The translations under genes were made by a program, and so were the position numbers. From positions 1 through 49,285 of the forward strand of contig JAGAUI010000022.1 of NCBI GenBank assembly GCA_017620815.1: DNA of 49,285 nt. Reading direction: 5' to 3'. Positions 1,138 through 13,598 of this stretch are shown here, in pieces; position 1 is the first letter of the stretch; every line of letters begins with the position of its first letter. This stretch comes from Flavobacteriales bacterium (GTDB lineage Bacteria; Bacteroidota; Bacteroidia; Flavobacteriales; UBA1820). The notes under the pieces are model-generated. The model was not told where the DNA came from and did no database searches. It saw nothing but the letters and a program-made list of their open reading frames with translations.

Positions 1138-2946
1138 ATGAAGGATTTCAGAAAACTATTTGAAATATCCTGGGAAGTATGTAACCAAAACGGTGGTATA
1201 TACACCGTCATACGTTCCAAAATGCCGTCCGTTACCGAATACTTCGGACAAAACTACTATGCCATAGGACCTTTCACGTCCAAATCACGCGGCGAATTTG
1301 AATATGAAGACCTACCCGATGATGCTGTAGGTGAAGTCATTCGCGAGATGTGGGCAGAAGGATTTGATATCCACTATGGTACTTGGCTTATAACAGGTAA
1401 ACCTCGCACTATCCTTTTTAACTACACAGGTAAAGATACTTCCGATTTTAAATACCACCTATGGAGAGAAGCAGGTGTGGATTCTGGAAGTATATCTCCA
1501 CTGGCCAATGACGTGGTATCATTCGGATATGCGGTATATGTATTCTTTAAAAAACTAGCCAGCAAAAAAGAATTCTTTGACAACGAAGTAATGCTGCAAT
1601 TCCACGAATGGATGGCCGGTATCCCACTGCCTTTCATTCGCAATGAGAAAATGCCTTACAAGACCGTATTTACGACTCACGCTACACTGCTAGGTCGTTA
1701 TCTGGCATTTAATGACCCTAGCTATTATTCACGTCTGCCATACGTGGATTGGCACAAGGAAGCAGTACATTTCAATATCCTAGCCGAATCACAGATAGAA
1801 CGTGCAGCCGCCCACGCAGCCGACTCATTTACTACCGTGAGCCAAGTGATGTGTGACGAATGTAAGTTCCTGCTAGGTCGTGAACCAGACCACATCACTC
1901 CAAACGGTCTTAATATAAACAAATTCACCTCTTTCTATAAAGTAGAAATCCTCCACCAAGACCTTAAGAACAAGATACATCAGTTCATACGTGGACATTT
2001 CTTTGGCTCATACTCGTTTGATTTATCTCGTACGTTGTATTTCTTTACATCGGGACGTTATGAGTATAAGAACAAAGGTTTTGACATGACTCTGGAAGCA
2101 TTGGCTCGTCTTAACCACAAACTAAAAATGATAGGTAGCGACGTTACAGTGGTGATGTTCTTCATTACCAATCGCCCTTGCCATAGCATCAACCCAAATG
2201 TCCTCAATACCCGCGGTATAATGGAAGAGCTGTATAAAAACAGCCAACAGATAGGTAAAGAAGTAGGTGATAAACTATTTGCCCACCTATCATCCAATGC
2301 TGGACACAGCCAGATGCCAGACCTTAACGCATTTATGAACGAAACTATGCGTTTCCGCGTTAAACGTACATTGCAGAGCTGGAATACCGATACTCTTCCA
2401 CCTGTAGTTACACATAACATCATAGACGACCACAAGGACGACATCCTCAACTTTATACGCTCATCTGGTCTTATAAACAAAAAAGAAGACCGCGTGAAGA
2501 TAGTTTATCACCCAGCGTTCATCTCTCCAGATAATCCACTATTTGGTATGGAGTATAGCGAATTTGTACGTGGTTGTCACCTAGGTGTATTCCCTTCATA
2601 CTATGAACCATGGGGTTATACTCCTTGTGAGGCGCTAGCATCGGGAGTGCCTGCTGTAACGTCAGATTTGGCAGGTTTTGGTGACTATGTAGAAAACCTT
2701 ACCAGTGGTGACGAAGACCGCGGCATCAAGGTTCTTCACCGCCGCGAATGCTCATTTGATGCAGCAGCAGAAGACTTGGCAAACTACATGCTCAAATACG
2801 CCACATCTACTTCCAGCGAACGTATCATGTTACGTACCCGTGCCGAAGACTACGCTATTGAGTTTGACTGGAAGAACCTCATACGCTACTATTTTGACGC
2901 ATACGACCATATATGTGGCGTGAAAGAGAAAAAAACAGTGATATAA
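1138..2946 (+). CDS. Glycogen synthase, GT3-like (602 aa)
   Basis: This is a cytoplasmic glucosyltransferase that extends alpha-1,4-glucan from a nucleotide-glucose donor. The N-terminus (ISWEVCNQNGGIYTVIRSK, residues 10-28) is the hallmark of the eukaryote-like GT3 glycogen synthases, in contrast to the KxGGL start of bacterial GlgA (GT5). HEWMAG lies at 156-161. The C-terminal catalytic signature YEPWGYTPCE gives the family's E-x7-E pair at Glu490 and Glu498, followed by the SGVPAVTSDLAGFG region. The full GT-B fold length is present. GT3 enzymes of animals and fungi use UDP-glucose; whether this one does cannot be told from sequence alone. The gene lies 17 bp upstream of the DUF4301 gene on the same strand, so the two are probably cotranscribed. 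No clear -7 box was found upstream; TATATTTC at 1008-1015 is a near match only. Confidence 0.9.
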   Translation: MKDFRKLFEISWEVCNQNGGIYTVIRSKMPSVTEYFGQNYYAIGPFTSKSRGEFEYEDLPDDAVGEVIREMWAEGFDIHYGTWLITGKPRTILFNYTGKDTSDFKYHLWREAGVDSGSISPLANDVVSFGYAVYVFFKKLASKKEFFDNEVMLQFHEWMAGIPLPFIRNEKMPYKTVFTTHATLLGRYLAFNDPSYYSRLPYVDWHKEAVHFNILAESQIERAAAHAADSFTTVSQVMCDECKFLLGREPDHITPNGLNINKFTSFYKVEILHQDLKNKIHQFIRGHFFGSYSFDLSRTLYFFTSGRYEYKNKGFDMTLEALARLNHKLKMIGSDVTVVMFFITNRPCHSINPNVLNTRGIMEELYKNSQQIGKEVGDKLFAHLSSNAGHSQMPDLNAFMNETMRFRVKRTLQSWNTDTLPPVVTHNIIDDHKDDILNFIRSSGLINKKEDRVKIVYHPAFISPDNPLFGMEYSEFVRGCHLGVFPSYYEPWGYTPCEALASGVPAVTSDLAGFGDYVENLTSGDEDRGIKVLHRRECSFDAAAEDLANYMLKYATSTSSERIMLRTRAEDYAIEFDWKNLIRYYFDAYDHICGVKEKKTVI

Positions 2947-2963
2947 ATAAAAAAGAAATAGAT

Positions 2964-4511
2964 ATGTTTACACCTCAAGATTTAGAACAAATGTCTGCTC
3001 ACGGTATAAGCCGTGAAAAAGTAGAACAGCAGATAGAATACTTCAAAAGCGGTTTCCCTGCACTGGACATAGTACAGTGTGCTACGATAGGAAAAGGCAT
3101 AGTACGTATGGATGATGAGCAGGTAGAAAAATACGTAAAACTATACCAAGACGCTTGCCACAGTAAAAAGATAGTAAAATTTGTCCCTGCAAGTGGTGCT
3201 GCCACTCGTATGTTCAAGGACCTATTTGTATTCATAGAAAAATTCCTCGCTTCAGAAATGGGATTTGAAGAGTTTACTGCTGCCAATAAACTAGGCAGTG
3301 TAAAATCTCTTATGGAAAAGATACGCAACATAGCCTTCTTCCCAGAACTTAAAGCCATCTATGAAGCTGCTGGTGATGATATAGAAAAACACATAGAGAG
3401 TGGAGATTACCTAGATATAGCCCGTAAAATCCTTCTAGAGGAGGGATTGGGATATGGTTCTCTACCCAAAGGGCTTATCTCTTTCCACTCATACCCACAG
3501 AAAGCTCGTAAAGCTGCCGAAGAACAATTGGCAGAAGGTGTACAGTATGCCATAGGTGCTCACCGCGAAGTAAACCTACACTTTACCGTTTCGGCAGAAC
3601 ACGAGGCTCTTTTTGAGGCATTGGTACGCAGCGTAAAACCTGCACTAGAGAAAGACGAACACATAACCCTTAACGCTTCCTTCTCACAACAAGCCAAAAG
3701 CACCGATACTATAGCCGTAGATATGGAAAACAAACCATTCCGCAAAGATGATGGTTCATTGGTTTTCCGCCCAGGTGGACACGGTGCCCTTATAGAGAAC
3801 CTCAACACTATAGATGCAGACGTTATCTTTATTAAAAACATTGACAACGTCGTTCCAGACTCTCTTAAAAAACCTACTATCACATATAAAGAAGCTGTAG
3901 CAGGTCTTCTTCTAGAAATGCAGGAAACAGCACACCGCTACCGTCACATACTGGATATGGGTATAGATAAAGAGGCTATGGAATCTCTAGAAAAATATGT
4001 AGAAGACGTTCTATGCCACAGCCTGCCTACTGCATATTCTAGTTGGAATGATGATGAAAAGAAAGACTACATGAGAGCATTCCTTTCTCGTCCTATGCGT
4101 GTGTGCGGTATGGTTAAAAACGAAGGCGAACCCGGTGGTGGACCATTCTGGGTACGCGAAAAAGATGGCAGCGTTTCTCTACAAGTGGTAGAGTCTGCAC
4201 AGATAGACATGAGCGACCCCGCCAAAAAAGCCATATTTGATGCTTCCACACACTTCAATCCAGTGGACCTAGTATGTGCCGTTAAGGACTATAAGGGAGA
4301 AAAGATAGACCTTACAGACTACATAGACCATATGGCTGGATTCATCTCTCACAAGAGTCTTTCTGGTCGCGACCTTAAAGCACTGGAACTACCGGGATTG
4401 TGGAATGGGGCGATGAGCCGTTGGATTACGGTCTTTGTAGAGGTGCCTATCGAGACATTTAACCCTGTCAAGACTGTAAACGACCTGTTGCGTGCAGCTC
4501 ACCAAGGTTAA
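2964..4511 (+). CDS. DUF4301 protein, possible sugar-nucleotide pyrophosphorylase
   Basis: The frame is open from 2913, but the first family-like residues (MFTPQDLEQM) start at 2964, which also removes the overlap with the preceding gene; this gives 515 aa. The protein has no signal peptide. It is recognised as DUF4301, an uncharacterised Bacteroidota family. The motif order matches UDP-sugar pyrophosphorylases: a glycine-rich loop followed by TRM (SGAATRM, 77-83, compare GxGTRM), TVSAEHE at 208-214, SFSQQ at 239-243, RPGGHGAL at 269-276, and FIKNIDNVV at 289-297, where DN could bind metal. A conserved-looking NEGEPGGGPFW block lies at 386-396. Its position next to glycogen synthase fits supply of nucleotide-glucose. 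The nucleotidyltransferase role is my inference; the family call is firmer. Confidence 0.8.
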   Translation: MFTPQDLEQMSAHGISREKVEQQIEYFKSGFPALDIVQCATIGKGIVRMDDEQVEKYVKLYQDACHSKKIVKFVPASGAATRMFKDLFVFIEKFLASEMGFEEFTAANKLGSVKSLMEKIRNIAFFPELKAIYEAAGDDIEKHIESGDYLDIARKILLEEGLGYGSLPKGLISFHSYPQKARKAAEEQLAEGVQYAIGAHREVNLHFTVSAEHEALFEALVRSVKPALEKDEHITLNASFSQQAKSTDTIAVDMENKPFRKDDGSLVFRPGGHGALIENLNTIDADVIFIKNIDNVVPDSLKKPTITYKEAVAGLLLEMQETAHRYRHILDMGIDKEAMESLEKYVEDVLCHSLPTAYSSWNDDEKKDYMRAFLSRPMRVCGMVKNEGEPGGGPFWVREKDGSVSLQVVESAQIDMSDPAKKAIFDASTHFNPVDLVCAVKDYKGEKIDLTDYIDHMAGFISHKSLSGRDLKALELPGLWNGAMSRWITVFVEVPIETFNPVKTVNDLLRAAHQG

Positions 4512-4536
4512 ACAGATATGAAGAACAGATACCACC

Positions 4537-4569
4537 AAAAAATCCTCGCCCTGTGGGCGAGGATTTTTT
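4537..4569. terminator. Bidirectional intrinsic terminator
   Basis: A perfect 15-bp inverted repeat (4537-4551 with 4555-4569, loop TGT) has a GC core flanked by an A-run on one side and a T-run on the other. It lies between the convergent DUF4301 and MFS genes and can serve both. Confidence 0.92.
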
Positions 4570-4584
4570 ATAGGTCATATCTTT

Positions 4585-5775
4585 TTACCTTAATTTTTTC
4601 TTCATAAAATATCCTTTGGCATATAGGAAATAGACAGCCACACCTATGGCATTTCCTATCCACATAGCCCAGAACGCTTGATGATAACCCCAATGCTCTA
4701 CTATGTAGCCCCCTATGAGCATACCCAGCCCCATCCCCGTGTCCCATGAGACATAAAGAGTAGAATTGGCTGTGCCGCGTTGGGAGTTAGGTGCTAGATT
4801 GAGGAATATGGTCTGGTATGCAGGGAACATATGCCCATTACCTAGACCTATTATAAATGCTGCTCCGTAGTATGCCCACGCACTATGAAATGCCGCAAAT
4901 GTGAAATACCCCACTAAAGATACCAGCATTCCTATCGATGCATTTTGTACTATCTTTCCCTCTCTTAATGTACGGCTACCCGTAAGACGAGAAAGGATAA
5001 GTCCTATGGATAGCAGCATAAAGAATAGCCCTGTACCGCCTGTTATGCCCAGTTCCTCTTTTCCATAGACCGCCACATATGTAGCTATCACTCCATATGA
5101 AAAACTCAGACACACCATAGATATGATAAACGGCCACGAACGGAGCAATATAAACCTATCCAACGATAGTTTCTGAACGGTTTTCTTTTCACGGGGAGAA
5201 AGACGCAATGTATAATTACAATAAAGCCCAGCACCCGATACTATGATAGCCATTATAAACAAAAGTTCATAGTTGCCAGTATATCCATATATAAACAGGG
5301 CTATAGTAGGAGCTATGGCTGTGGCTACGTTATTACTCAATCCATAGTAACCTATACCTTCGGCTCGGCGGGAAGAAGGTAGCACGTCTATTGCCACAGT
5401 GCTATTGGATATAGTTGCAAGTCCAAACGGAGCTCCGTGCAATGTACGCACCACAGCAAAAAGCCACAGACTTCCTGCCAATGGGTAACCTATAAACAAT
5501 ACAAAAAACAGGAAGAAACTGGAAAGCAAGACCGTCTTTCTAGGCAGACTATCTACCAGATATCCCCCAAATGGACGCACCAGTAGAGCCGTAAGAGTAT
5601 AACCAGAAAGCACCAGTCCTATCGTCTGTTTGCTAGCTCCAAATACTTCTGAAAGATAAAGTGGAAAGAGAGGTGTGAGGAGCATAAAGGAAAAAAACAG
5701 CATAAAGTTTGCTGTCCACACGCGTACATAATTTCTATTCCATAATTTTTCTGATACCATTTCCATTTTACCCAA
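4585..5775 (-). CDS. Major facilitator superfamily transporter (396 aa)
   Basis: This is an inner-membrane secondary transporter. The protein is very hydrophobic, with about 12 membrane segments. The MFS motif A region sits between segments 2 and 3 (GGYLVDSLPRK, near residues 70-80), and a GNGHMFPAYQ stretch occurs in the second half. Length is normal for the 12-helix MFS. The start at 5775 is the longest; Met4 or Met6 (MEMVSEK) are equally possible. The substrate cannot be read from the sequence; the general look is that of sugar-efflux or multidrug-type permeases. It is convergent with DUF4301, and clc lies upstream on the same strand after a 73-bp gap. Confidence 0.85.
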   Translation of the reverse strand: MGKMEMVSEKLWNRNYVRVWTANFMLFFSFMLLTPLFPLYLSEVFGASKQTIGLVLSGYTLTALLVRPFGGYLVDSLPRKTVLLSSFFLFFVLFIGYPLAGSLWLFAVVRTLHGAPFGLATISNSTVAIDVLPSSRRAEGIGYYGLSNNVATAIAPTIALFIYGYTGNYELLFIMAIIVSGAGLYCNYTLRLSPREKKTVQKLSLDRFILLRSWPFIISMVCLSFSYGVIATYVAVYGKEELGITGGTGLFFMLLSIGLILSRLTGSRTLREGKIVQNASIGMLVSLVGYFTFAAFHSAWAYYGAAFIIGLGNGHMFPAYQTIFLNLAPNSQRGTANSTLYVSWDTGMGLGMLIGGYIVEHWGYHQAFWAMWIGNAIGVAVYFLYAKGYFMKKKLR

Positions 5776-5848
5776 TGTTTTTATTTACTCTATGAGTCTT
5801 TGTGGTAGCAGATAGTTATAATTAAGTTATTATAGATAAGTCTTAAAA

Positions 5849-7702
5849 CTAGAACAATTCATGTTCTTTTTTATGTTCTAGCATCTTCTCACGATAGATA
5901 GAGAGGACTTTGCTCTTGGAGATGAATCCCACATAACGATTGTGATAACCTACCACAGGAAGATTCCATGCCGATGTCTTTTGGAATTTGTGCATAATGT
6001 CTGTTATGCTATCCTCTCCATGCACTACAACAGATGGGGCCTGTACCATCACATCCTCTACCTTTACTTTATTATAGAGATGGCTTTGGAACATTATCTG
6101 TCTTATATCATCCAGCAGTATCACTCCACGCAAATGATTATGGCGAGATACTACAGGGAATATATTACGAGAAGAAATAGATATAGCATCACGGACTATA
6201 TCTCCCAGTGTAGCATCTACTGGCACTTTGACAAAATCTCGTTCTATGATACGTTCTACATCTATATCATCCAGTATTGTCTTGTCTTTATCGTGGGTAG
6301 GCAGGTCGCCTTTTTTTATGAGTTCTTCGGTATAGACGCTGTAACGCACATAGAAACGCGTGATAACATATGACATAGCCGATACTATCATCAGCGGAGC
6401 TATAAGCGAATACCCTCCTGTAGTCTCTACTATGAGAAAGACAGCTGTAAGCGGTGCCTGCATCACTCCCGCCATAAGTCCTGTCATTCCCACCAGAGCA
6501 AAAAGATGCACAGGCAGTGCAGCCGCAGGATAGACGAGATTCACCGCCATAGCAAATGTAGCTCCCGCCACAGCACCCATAAATAGTGTAGGTGCAAACG
6601 TTCCTCCTATACCCCCAGCTCCAAATGTAATAGTCGTTGCCAACATCTTAAGGTACAACATCACCAGCATTAACACCACTACCACCACAGGACTCTCCCA
6701 ACCTTTTGCCCACATAAAATCTGTGATAGACTCTTCGGCTAGCAAAGCATTTATAGTTCCATATCCCTCACCATAGAGTGTAGGCATAAAAAACAGCAAT
6801 ACTCCCAGCGATAGAGAACCTACAAGCAGTCTGGTGTATGTACTACTTAACTTCCGCTCAAAAAAATGACCTACACGGGAATATATCTTGGTAAAATGTA
6901 TAGATGCCATAGCAGTAAAAAACGCTAGTGCCACATAATACATTATGTTTTTTAACTGGAATGAAGTCGTAGCGTCAAAATCAAGGGTAAGTGTCTGTCC
7001 CATAAAGAAATATGACACCAGTACCCCCGTAGCCGATGATAGCATTAGCGGGATAAGCGATGCCATAGTAAGGTCTAGAGAAAACACCTCTATCACAAAT
7101 ATGATACCCGTTATAGGCACCTTAAATATAGCCGAAAGTGCTGCTGCTGTACCACAAGCCAAAAGCAACTGTCTGGCACGGGAATCCAGATGTACCATTC
7201 GCGAGAAATTGGAACCTAGAGCTGCTCCCGTTGCCACCGCTGGGCCTTCCAGACCCGCACTACCACCAAAACCTACAGTAAGAGGAGCCGTTATGAGTGC
7301 CGAATATGTACTCTTGAATGGCAAGACAGATTTTTTACGGGAGATAGCATATAGGACATTTGGTATTCCATGACCTATCTTTTTGCGTATGATATACTTT
7401 ACCACCAGCAATGTGAGTGATATACCTATGATAGGAAAGGCAAAATAAAAACCATTTATCCCCCATTTTTCCACCAATATATCCTCTACAAAATACTGTA
7501 TGTAGTGCGTCATATTTTTAAGGATAACAGATGACACACCTCCCGCTATACCTATCACTATACTGCATAGTATGAGAAACTGACGCATAGACATATGACG
7601 ATACCGCCATAGTATAAACCTACGCAAAGCCCCTCCGCTTACCACAAGACGGAAGAGATAACTACACATTCTACTCACACTATGTATAATGCGTTTATGC
7701 AT
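5849..7702 (-). CDS. ClC family chloride channel/transporter with CBS domains (617 aa)
   Basis: This is an inner-membrane anion channel or H+/anion exchanger. The ClC signature segments are in order: GHGIP at 110-114, GLEGP at 150-154 with the gating glutamate Glu152, and GGTFAP in the second half. A C-terminal cytoplasmic region (from about residue 480) carries two CBS-type repeats. At the position of the internal proton glutamate of the E. coli exchanger (second E of FIIEE), this protein has valine (FVIEV, Val206), as vertebrate ClC channels do. That hints at channel rather than exchanger behaviour, but this is inference. The aspS gene lies upstream on the same strand, separated by a terminator, so clc probably has its own promoter; I could not identify one. 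Confidence 0.92.
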   Translation of the reverse strand: MHKRIIHSVSRMCSYLFRLVVSGGALRRFILWRYRHMSMRQFLILCSIVIGIAGGVSSVILKNMTHYIQYFVEDILVEKWGINGFYFAFPIIGISLTLLVVKYIIRKKIGHGIPNVLYAISRKKSVLPFKSTYSALITAPLTVGFGGSAGLEGPAVATGAALGSNFSRMVHLDSRARQLLLACGTAAALSAIFKVPITGIIFVIEVFSLDLTMASLIPLMLSSATGVLVSYFFMGQTLTLDFDATTSFQLKNIMYYVALAFFTAMASIHFTKIYSRVGHFFERKLSSTYTRLLVGSLSLGVLLFFMPTLYGEGYGTINALLAEESITDFMWAKGWESPVVVVVLMLVMLYLKMLATTITFGAGGIGGTFAPTLFMGAVAGATFAMAVNLVYPAAALPVHLFALVGMTGLMAGVMQAPLTAVFLIVETTGGYSLIAPLMIVSAMSYVITRFYVRYSVYTEELIKKGDLPTHDKDKTILDDIDVERIIERDFVKVPVDATLGDIVRDAISISSRNIFPVVSRHNHLRGVILLDDIRQIMFQSHLYNKVKVEDVMVQAPSVVVHGEDSITDIMHKFQKTSAWNLPVVGYHNRYVGFISKSKVLSIYREKMLEHKKEHELF

Positions 7703-11942: not shown

Positions 11943-13598
11943 ATGACTCATACCCGTGCCCAAGAATCCAGCCGAGCCCTTGAAAGGATATACGTCACCA
12001 TGAGACACCTCTTTAACCGCGGTTTTTATAAACCGGGAGGAATATCTGGTGATGCACTATTAAAATCACTACTCACACTATCTCCCGAGATTTACGGTAG
12101 TATGACAGACATAGAAAAGGTAGAACTAGACGGAATGGTTTATGTTCTAGAGCGTCTGCCTATGGGCATAGAGGAATGTCGTTATATCCATTTTACGTCT
12201 GAAGAAGGGTATGAGAAATCATTTAATCCCATCATACCACAGCGTCGTCGCAACTACTGTTTCCGCATAGACGCCGAACAAATGAACATACAGATAACCC
12301 ATGGACGCAGTGACCTGTATGACATGCTCTCCCACCTTACATTTCTTTTCAATGAGTCTGAAAAGATAATGCAGCACGCCATGCCAAAAGAAAACGTCTT
12401 TTCCCGCGAATGGAAAAAGATAGAAGAATTGGTCGTGGGAGGTGGCTCGCTGGACAAAAACAAAGAAGACATATACATATCATATCTAGCGGTACTGCTA
12501 GGACGTTCATATGAGGAGGTGATGGTAACCACTCGCAGGCTCGCCACCAAGGAGAACCCTTACCGTATATTCCACATTATCTACCATCTAGGACGTCTTT
12601 CCATAGAGGAATCTACATCTGGTACAGACCGTGAGATATCATTTTCTTCGCTTCTACGCGAACGCATAGGTCATCATGTCTATGGTTCTATGTGGGCTGC
12701 CGAAGTCAAAAAAATACTGGTAGAAAAATCCCTTGAAAAGAGACCTCTCCACATCATAAGTGCCAATATGCACAGCGTGATGAACACTTTCTATGCCGCC
12801 GATGCTCTTTCACACACAGAACCCTGTGATGGCTTATATGTCAATCTATCCCTAGACGAAAATAGTAATCTACGCTCTAGTGTTAAAGAATATGCCTTAA
12901 AACACGGCATGACATACATAAATGACTCCTCTGGTGCAAATGTCGATGTACAGATATTTGATTGCAGTCTTATCCCATCTATCAATGATAGATATAAAAA
13001 CACTGCCATAGAAGATATTCCTGTCATACTGGTTATAGATTATGCATTTGGAGAGCAGGCTTATGAGATAATGGACGAACTCTTACGTCCCATAGAACCA
13101 TATAATCACACCAAACTCTTTATGGATATAAAGTCTATATCCATCATGGGCAAAGCTGGCATACTATGTGGCAAGAAAGGTGAGATAATGATACCTACGG
13201 CACATATTTTTGAAGGCACTGCCGATAACTACCCTTTTGAGAATGCTCTTAAAGTAGATGATTTCAATGGTTGCGGTATCCCTGCATACCAAGGTCCCAT
13301 GATTTCGGTTTTAGGCACTTCGCTTCAGAACAAGGACATACTGGAGTTCTTTATGCGTTCCTCGTGGAGGGTTATAGGTCTGGAAATGGAAGGGGCTCAC
13401 TACCAGAAAGCCATCCAAGCACATTCGCGTATAAGGGGAAATATATCCAGTGATGTGGTATTGAGATATGCTTATTACGCATCAGACTGCCCGCTGGATA
13501 CTTCCACCACCCTAGCACAAGGTCCTATGGGAGTAAGTGGTGTAAGCCCTACATACCTCATCACCCGTAAAATCATAGAACAGATAATATCACAATAG
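11943..13598 (+). CDS. Conserved Bacteroidota protein with nucleoside phosphorylase-like C-terminus (551 aa)
   Basis: I do not recognise a characterised function. It may correspond to DUF6909, which I could not check. There is no signal peptide or membrane segment. Residues 1-260 look mostly helical. The C-terminal part (about 265-551) shows the order of motifs of the PNP/MTA nucleosidase fold: IMGKAGILCGKKGEIMIP (401-418, compare the GxAGGL...GDxVI region), IGLEMEGAHY (478-487, compare the ribose-binding VDMEGAA), and YASDCP (512-517, where Asp would be the catalytic residue of MTAN-like RxISD). This resemblance is by eye. The stop lies 1 bp before the dnaG ATG, so it is translationally close to primase and probably the first gene of that operon. 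Confidence 0.7.
   Translation: MTHTRAQESSRALERIYVTMRHLFNRGFYKPGGISGDALLKSLLTLSPEIYGSMTDIEKVELDGMVYVLERLPMGIEECRYIHFTSEEGYEKSFNPIIPQRRRNYCFRIDAEQMNIQITHGRSDLYDMLSHLTFLFNESEKIMQHAMPKENVFSREWKKIEELVVGGGSLDKNKEDIYISYLAVLLGRSYEEVMVTTRRLATKENPYRIFHIIYHLGRLSIEESTSGTDREISFSSLLRERIGHHVYGSMWAAEVKKILVEKSLEKRPLHIISANMHSVMNTFYAADALSHTEPCDGLYVNLSLDENSNLRSSVKEYALKHGMTYINDSSGANVDVQIFDCSLIPSINDRYKNTAIEDIPVILVIDYAFGEQAYEIMDELLRPIEPYNHTKLFMDIKSISIMGKAGILCGKKGEIMIPTAHIFEGTADNYPFENALKVDDFNGCGIPAYQGPMISVLGTSLQNKDILEFFMRSSWRVIGLEMEGAHYQKAIQAHSRIRGNISSDVVLRYAYYASDCPLDTSTTLAQGPMGVSGVSPTYLITRKIIEQIISQ

Follow-up and report, generated by a model that had tools for sequence, protein, structure and literature searches.

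DUF4301, paired with a glycogen synthase gene, may instead be an unrecognized enzyme of NAD synthesis

The glycogen synthase-DUF4301 gene pair

The window (i.e., the whole stretch of 49,285 nucleotides analyzed here) carries two complete genes on the same strand: a GT3-type glycogen synthase (GS; 602 aa; positions 1138 to 2946, +), matching PF05693 at 617 bits (5e-185), and a DUF4301 protein (515 aa from the ATG at 2964; positions 2964 to 4511, +), matching PF14134 at 720 bits (1.9e-216) against a gathering cutoff of 27 bits. The gap between them (2947 to 2963) is exactly 17 bp, confirming the gene order and spacing of the original prediction. We infer that the two genes are co-transcribed from this spacing alone, because a scan for sigma-70 promoters and terminators gave no clear excess over shuffled sequences. 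Elsewhere in the window lie a tRNA-Arg(CCG) gene (875 to 947) and, directly upstream of dnaG, a gene for a DUF6909 protein of 551 aa (11943 to 13598, +).

Five motifs had been named in DUF4301 as resembling blocks of UDPGP-type enzymes, and all of them—namely, SGAATRM (residues 77 to 83), TVSAEHE (208 to 214), SFSQQ (239 to 243), RPGGHGAL (269 to 276), and FIKNIDNVV (289 to 297)—occupy the residues given for them. When conservation was scored over 119 DUF4301 homologues, their core residues (S77, G78, R82, Q243, G272, H273, N292, and D294) proved invariant, which argues that the motifs are not chance look-alikes. Weak matches of the protein to other models (NCBIfam DhaM, E 0.0036; Pfam Ku/HTH) were far under cutoff and were disregarded.

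Predicted fold and active site of DUF4301

An AlphaFold2 model of the window's DUF4301, built with 50 homologues, reached a pLDDT of 94 and a pTM of 0.92. In a Foldseek search with this model, all 42 matches at E ≤ 1e-3 were UDP-glucose or UDP-GlcNAc pyrophosphorylases, among them human UGP at 4.9e-12. VIA superposed 317 residues on yeast Ugp1p (Z 24.2; 3.2 Å) and ~340 residues on UDP-GlcNAc pyrophosphorylases (Z ~21). The best 50 structural matches listed were of the UGP/UAP/RmlA/GlmU type, the HxGH fold not being among them. At the sequence level, a single-protein phmmer search of the window's DUF4301 against the PDB found no match; the family profile matched yeast Ugp1p (2i5k) as its sole PDB sequence (E 0.95), with the motifs PxGHG/NxDN and ExxQ/FN/FxPVKTxxDLL colinear. 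By hhalign, the C-terminal part of DUF4301 aligned to UGP (E 5e-4, probability 32%) with E410, F431-N432, and FNPVKTVNDLL in register. The window protein had no match at E ≤ 1 to PF01704 (UDPGP; cutoff 22 bits), the best DUF4301 homologues scoring 15.9 bits (E 0.0057) and 18.5 bits, under that cutoff, nor at E ≤ 1 to cytidylyltransferase-like or NadD/NadR models. The confident model, with its nucleotidyltransferase core matching UGP and UAP, thus bears out the UDPGP-like fold originally proposed; the model and the alignments indicate that in both fold and active site DUF4301 is a nucleotidyltransferase of the UDPGP type, from which its chemistry is predicted. Proteins of ~1,100 aa with partial PF01704 matches over cutoff (L150 to L154 and L157) form another large UDPGP-related family in Bacteroidota.

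Residue equivalences were drawn from the ligand contacts reported for UGP (PMC10470519), with the numbering checked on PDB 8c0b. The UGP phosphate and metal residues His228, Asp258, and Lys403 correspond to H273, D294, and K503 of DUF4301, all three invariant in the 119 homologues. G272 and H273, within RPGGHGAL (3768 to 3791, +), align by HMMER to the PPGHGDL motif of 2i5k and stand for the UGP uridine contact G227 and phosphate contact H228. In FIKNIDNVV (3828 to 3854, +), N292 matches the sugar contact N256 and D294 the metal ligand D258, as judged from the 2i5k alignment. K503 falls in FNPVKTVNDLL (residues 499 to 509; 4458 to 4490, +), the counterpart of FLPVKTCSDLL in UGP, and E410 (4191 to 4193, +) is the counterpart of E307, which contacts sugar hydroxyls; both were placed by HMMER and hhalign. 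Q243 (3690 to 3692, +) is the candidate equivalent of the uridine-contacting Q198 of AnUGP, as it has the same 29-residue spacing to the Gly of PxGHG. All of G272, N292, E410, and Q243 are likewise invariant.

Other positions depart from UGP. The SGAATRM loop (3192 to 3212, +), which follows the strand at residues 70 to 74, is the predicted nucleotide-binding loop, and A76, S77, G78, and R82 are invariant; depending on register, Gly123-Gly124 of UGP corresponds to A76-S77 or S77-G78, so that at least one Gly is lost. Mutation of this Gly-Gly inactivates human UGP (PMC10470519). K85 is nearly invariant among the 119 homologues, at a spacing that differs from that of Lys135 in the UGP loop. In N432-P433-V434 (4257 to 4265, +), N432, also invariant, preserves UGP N329, and V434 occupies the position of the glucose-contacting N331, which is Val throughout the 119 homologues apart from Thr in three. 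The catalytic core also holds an additional, highly conserved loop, NEGEPGGGPFW.

Compared with eukaryotic UGP (PF01704; 2i5k, 4r7p, 8c0b), DUF4301 shares the GT-A-like core, the order of the motifs, the PxGHG His, the NxD metal Asp, the sugar-contact Glu and Asn, and the FxPVKTxxDLL Lys, but scores below the PF01704 cutoff, reads PASGA where UGP has NGGLG, carries Val for N331 and the inserted GEPGGGPFW loop, and lacks the C-terminal oligomerization domain of UGP, its chain ending after FxPVK. With UDP-GlcNAc pyrophosphorylase (AGX1/UAP1; 1jv1, 6tn3) it shares the fold, whereas the loop and genomic context differ and no sequence match is above threshold. Because the UGP catalytic contacts are invariant and the PASGA loop, the N331-to-Val change, and the EPGGGPF loop are distinctive, the sequences point to a protein in which the nucleotidyl-transfer machinery is retained and the specificity loops are altered. 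The active-site columns are alike in kinase-linked, GS-linked, and unlinked DUF4301 proteins, only residues 124 and 510 separating the kinase-linked ones from the rest, which favors one reaction for the whole family.

Genomic partners of DUF4301

The family is bacterial, mainly of Bacteroidota with some Desulfobacterales MAGs, and was present in about one-sixth of the sampled Bacteroidota genomes (32/198), including gut Bacteroides and Parabacteroides. No viral contig was found to carry it, the phage set holding only three unannotated fecal contigs with DUF4301, and plasmid matches were unannotated or named DUF4301 alone. The literature searched contains one passing mention of DUF4301 and no assigned function.

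GS lies directly upstream of DUF4301 in all four sampled genomes of the window's genus (G000 to G003) and in all three of a second family, f2 (G004, G019, and G030), whose DUF4301 is ~50% identical to the window's. The expected adjacency was thus seen in all seven genomes from families f1 and f2, yet across the phylum the two genes did not co-occur: of 198 Bacteroidota genomes, 7 had GS, 32 had DUF4301, and 2 had both (Fisher p=0.32), leaving five of the seven GS genomes without DUF4301, and GS was absent from every DUF4301-carrying Flavobacteriaceae genome sampled. In a quick tree, the DUF4301 sequences of f1 and f2 do not group as sisters, so that the pair need not have arisen only once. The glycogen-synthesis cassette originally proposed therefore found no support in phylum-wide co-occurrence, and the dominant partner of DUF4301 was instead a NadR-type riboside kinase.

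This kinase (NRK) adjoins or shares a reading frame with DUF4301 in ~47 Flavobacteriaceae loci, normally behind pnuC; in ~30 of these the order is pnuC-NRK-DUF4301, the kinase stop often overlapping the DUF4301 start. Among the loci placed in the tree, 13 have NRK and DUF4301 fused in a single frame, and the starred branches of this tree require fusion to have been gained or lost three or more times. The PnuC proteins of DUF4301-linked loci pass TIGR01528, and the linked kinase matches only residues ~163 to 321 of TIGR01526, that is, the kinase half of NadR. In NadR, the N-terminal domain is an NMN adenylyltransferase (PMC7221760). Both Flavobacteriaceae and f2 show the arrangement expected of a riboside-salvage operon, with pnuC and riboside kinase adjoining DUF4301 or joined to it in one frame. 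Within f2, one genome (G019, L177) carries pnuC (2575 to 3207), NRK (3162 to 3716), GS (3892 to 5688), and DUF4301 (5763 to 7331) in succession, and another (G030, L178) the order NRK, GS, DUF4301. In the window genome, pnuC-NRK is on contig C15, separate from the DUF4301 contig, and the NRK is kinase-only, aligning to residues 171 to 345 of Haemophilus influenzae NadR.

At one pnuC locus DUF4301 varies by simple presence or absence: G136 and G205 have DUF4301 immediately after pnuC, without NRK, and then an ArfB-like gene, and G031, G140, and G158 have the same ArfB-like gene after pnuC-NRK. That gene (SSGAGGQHVNKVSSK) ends the pnuC-NRK-(DUF4301) locus with or without DUF4301 (L161, L162, L163, L174, and L175). 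DUF4301 was found in 19 of the 32 genomes with pnuC beside a kinase-only gene versus 1 of the 12 with pnuC beside a NadR-length frame (p=0.003), and it was commoner in PnuC genomes (p=0.0008); for both comparisons, genes were sorted by length and counted manually, and the genomes are not phylogenetically independent, no phylogenetic correction being applied. NadR-length riboside-kinase frames also occur near pnuC in GS-bearing genomes without DUF4301 (G104, G124, G197, and G237).

Other observations cut against a role in NAD synthesis. In 10 of the 32 genomes with DUF4301, PnuC, a convincing NRK, and NadV are all missing, the absence of the last eliminating it as their source of NMN. NAD-dependent DNA ligase could supply NMN in these ten. 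A further 13 genomes carry pnuC-NRK but lack both DUF4301 and a gene of NadR length, and since NadD and NadE are near-universal among the genomes surveyed, no genome needs DUF4301 for NAD. Presence/absence reasoning with NadD, NadE, and GalU was accordingly uninformative, the first two being near-universal and GalU nearly absent. Outside Flavobacteriaceae and f1/f2 we saw neither linkage of DUF4301 to NAD genes nor any other recurring partner; further neighbors (RelA/SpoT, 3-keto-disaccharide hydrolase, POR, UPF0047, and LigD_N) were lineage-specific and shared no pathway. In Bacteroides/Parabacteroides-type genomes, DUF4301 divergently adjoins the RelA/SpoT gene (L009, L010, L012, L020, L022, L025, L036, and L037).

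Proposed function and alternative explanations

The explanation we put forward, tentatively and at somewhat less than even odds, is that DUF4301 is an NMN adenylyltransferase of UDPGP (GT-A) fold that makes NAD in nicotinamide riboside (NR) salvage. It would act as a magnesium-dependent nucleotidyltransferase, coupling an NTP with a small phosphorylated molecule and releasing pyrophosphate. PnuC would take up NR, the NadR-type kinase would convert it to NMN, and DUF4301 would stand in for the missing adenylyltransferase half of NadR (NMN + ATP → NAD + PPi), a substrate suggested by the fusions, operon order, and pathway logic. If one reaction is favored for the family, the substrate is better indicated by the kinase fusion than by an inserted GS, because the kinase yields NMN and the half of NadR that is missing is an NMN adenylyltransferase. 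In the window lineage, GS may have come to lie beside DUF4301 by rearrangement of an older pnuC-NRK-(GS)-DUF4301 block, as L177, L178, and L128 suggest. Like NadR systems (TIGR01526; 1lw7, 6gye), DUF4301 loci would combine PnuC, riboside kinase, and nucleotidyltransferase, in one chain in the fusions; DUF4301, however, has a UDPGP fold and follows the kinase, whereas in NadR the adenylyltransferase, a Rossmann-like domain of the HxGH type, precedes it on the N-terminal side. The fuller claim, that DUF4301 represents a novel type of NMN adenylyltransferase, with the UDPGP/GT-A fold in place of that of NadD, NadM, and NadR, that replaced the NadR domain in Bacteroidota NR salvage and was repeatedly fused to the kinase, we hold a little more tentatively still. 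As a counterweight, the UGP sugar contacts E307, N256, and N329 and the uridine contacts Q198 and G227 appear to be kept, and these fit a sugar nucleotide equally well.

Those contacts, together with the UGP-like fold, also speak for the sugar-1-phosphate nucleotidyltransferase of the original prediction, supplying UDP- or ADP-glucose to GS, as does the GS adjacency in all seven genomes of the two families. According to a review, Bacteroidetes lack GlgC, the source of the donor being left open there (PMC10395257). The window genome has no GalU over cutoff, no PF01704 match over cutoff, and no recognizable GlgC; however, the absence of GalU says little, given that canonical GalU exceeded its cutoff in only 3/198 genomes. 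This genome does encode RmlA, a ManC-like protein, and one unassigned NTP transferase, which could itself make the donor. This last protein (L160:1486-2394, contig C23 of G000; 302 aa; MKPTLLILAAGMGSRYGGLKQ) has no NCBIfam equivalog and might provide UDP-glucose where GalU is lacking. A donor role for DUF4301 is further at odds with the distribution of GS described above, with the riboside-kinase fusion, for which it hardly accounts, with the placement of the GS-DUF4301 pair of one family inside pnuC-NRK-GS-DUF4301 (L177), and with a loop lacking the Gly-Gly needed by UGP and Val or Thr at the glucose contact in all 119 homologues. We consider this reading alive though weaker, and unlikely.

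A nucleotidyltransferase acting on some other phosphorylated metabolite, one that unites linked and unlinked contexts and makes the pnuC-NRK link an unrecognized side route, would suit both the isofunctional-looking active site with and without PnuC/NRK and the conserved extra loop in the catalytic core; given that no further partner recurs outside Flavobacteriaceae and f1/f2, we regard it as rather doubtful, albeit a serious competitor to NMN adenylation. That DUF4301 is instead a non-enzymatic or regulatory UDPGP-fold protein bound to NRK (e.g., a NAD-precursor sensor) is suggested only by its position in pnuC-NRK operons and the fusions, and seems highly improbable, because the invariance of H273, D294, E410, N292, K503, and Q243 implies catalysis.

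Should DUF4301 make a sugar nucleotide, it could answer how GS obtains its donor in Bacteroidota lacking GlgC. As weighed here, it may instead be an enzyme of NAD synthesis that has gone unrecognized; if so, a universal reaction would have a new solution in a UDPGP-fold enzyme that makes NAD, and the annotation and models of NAD salvage would change.
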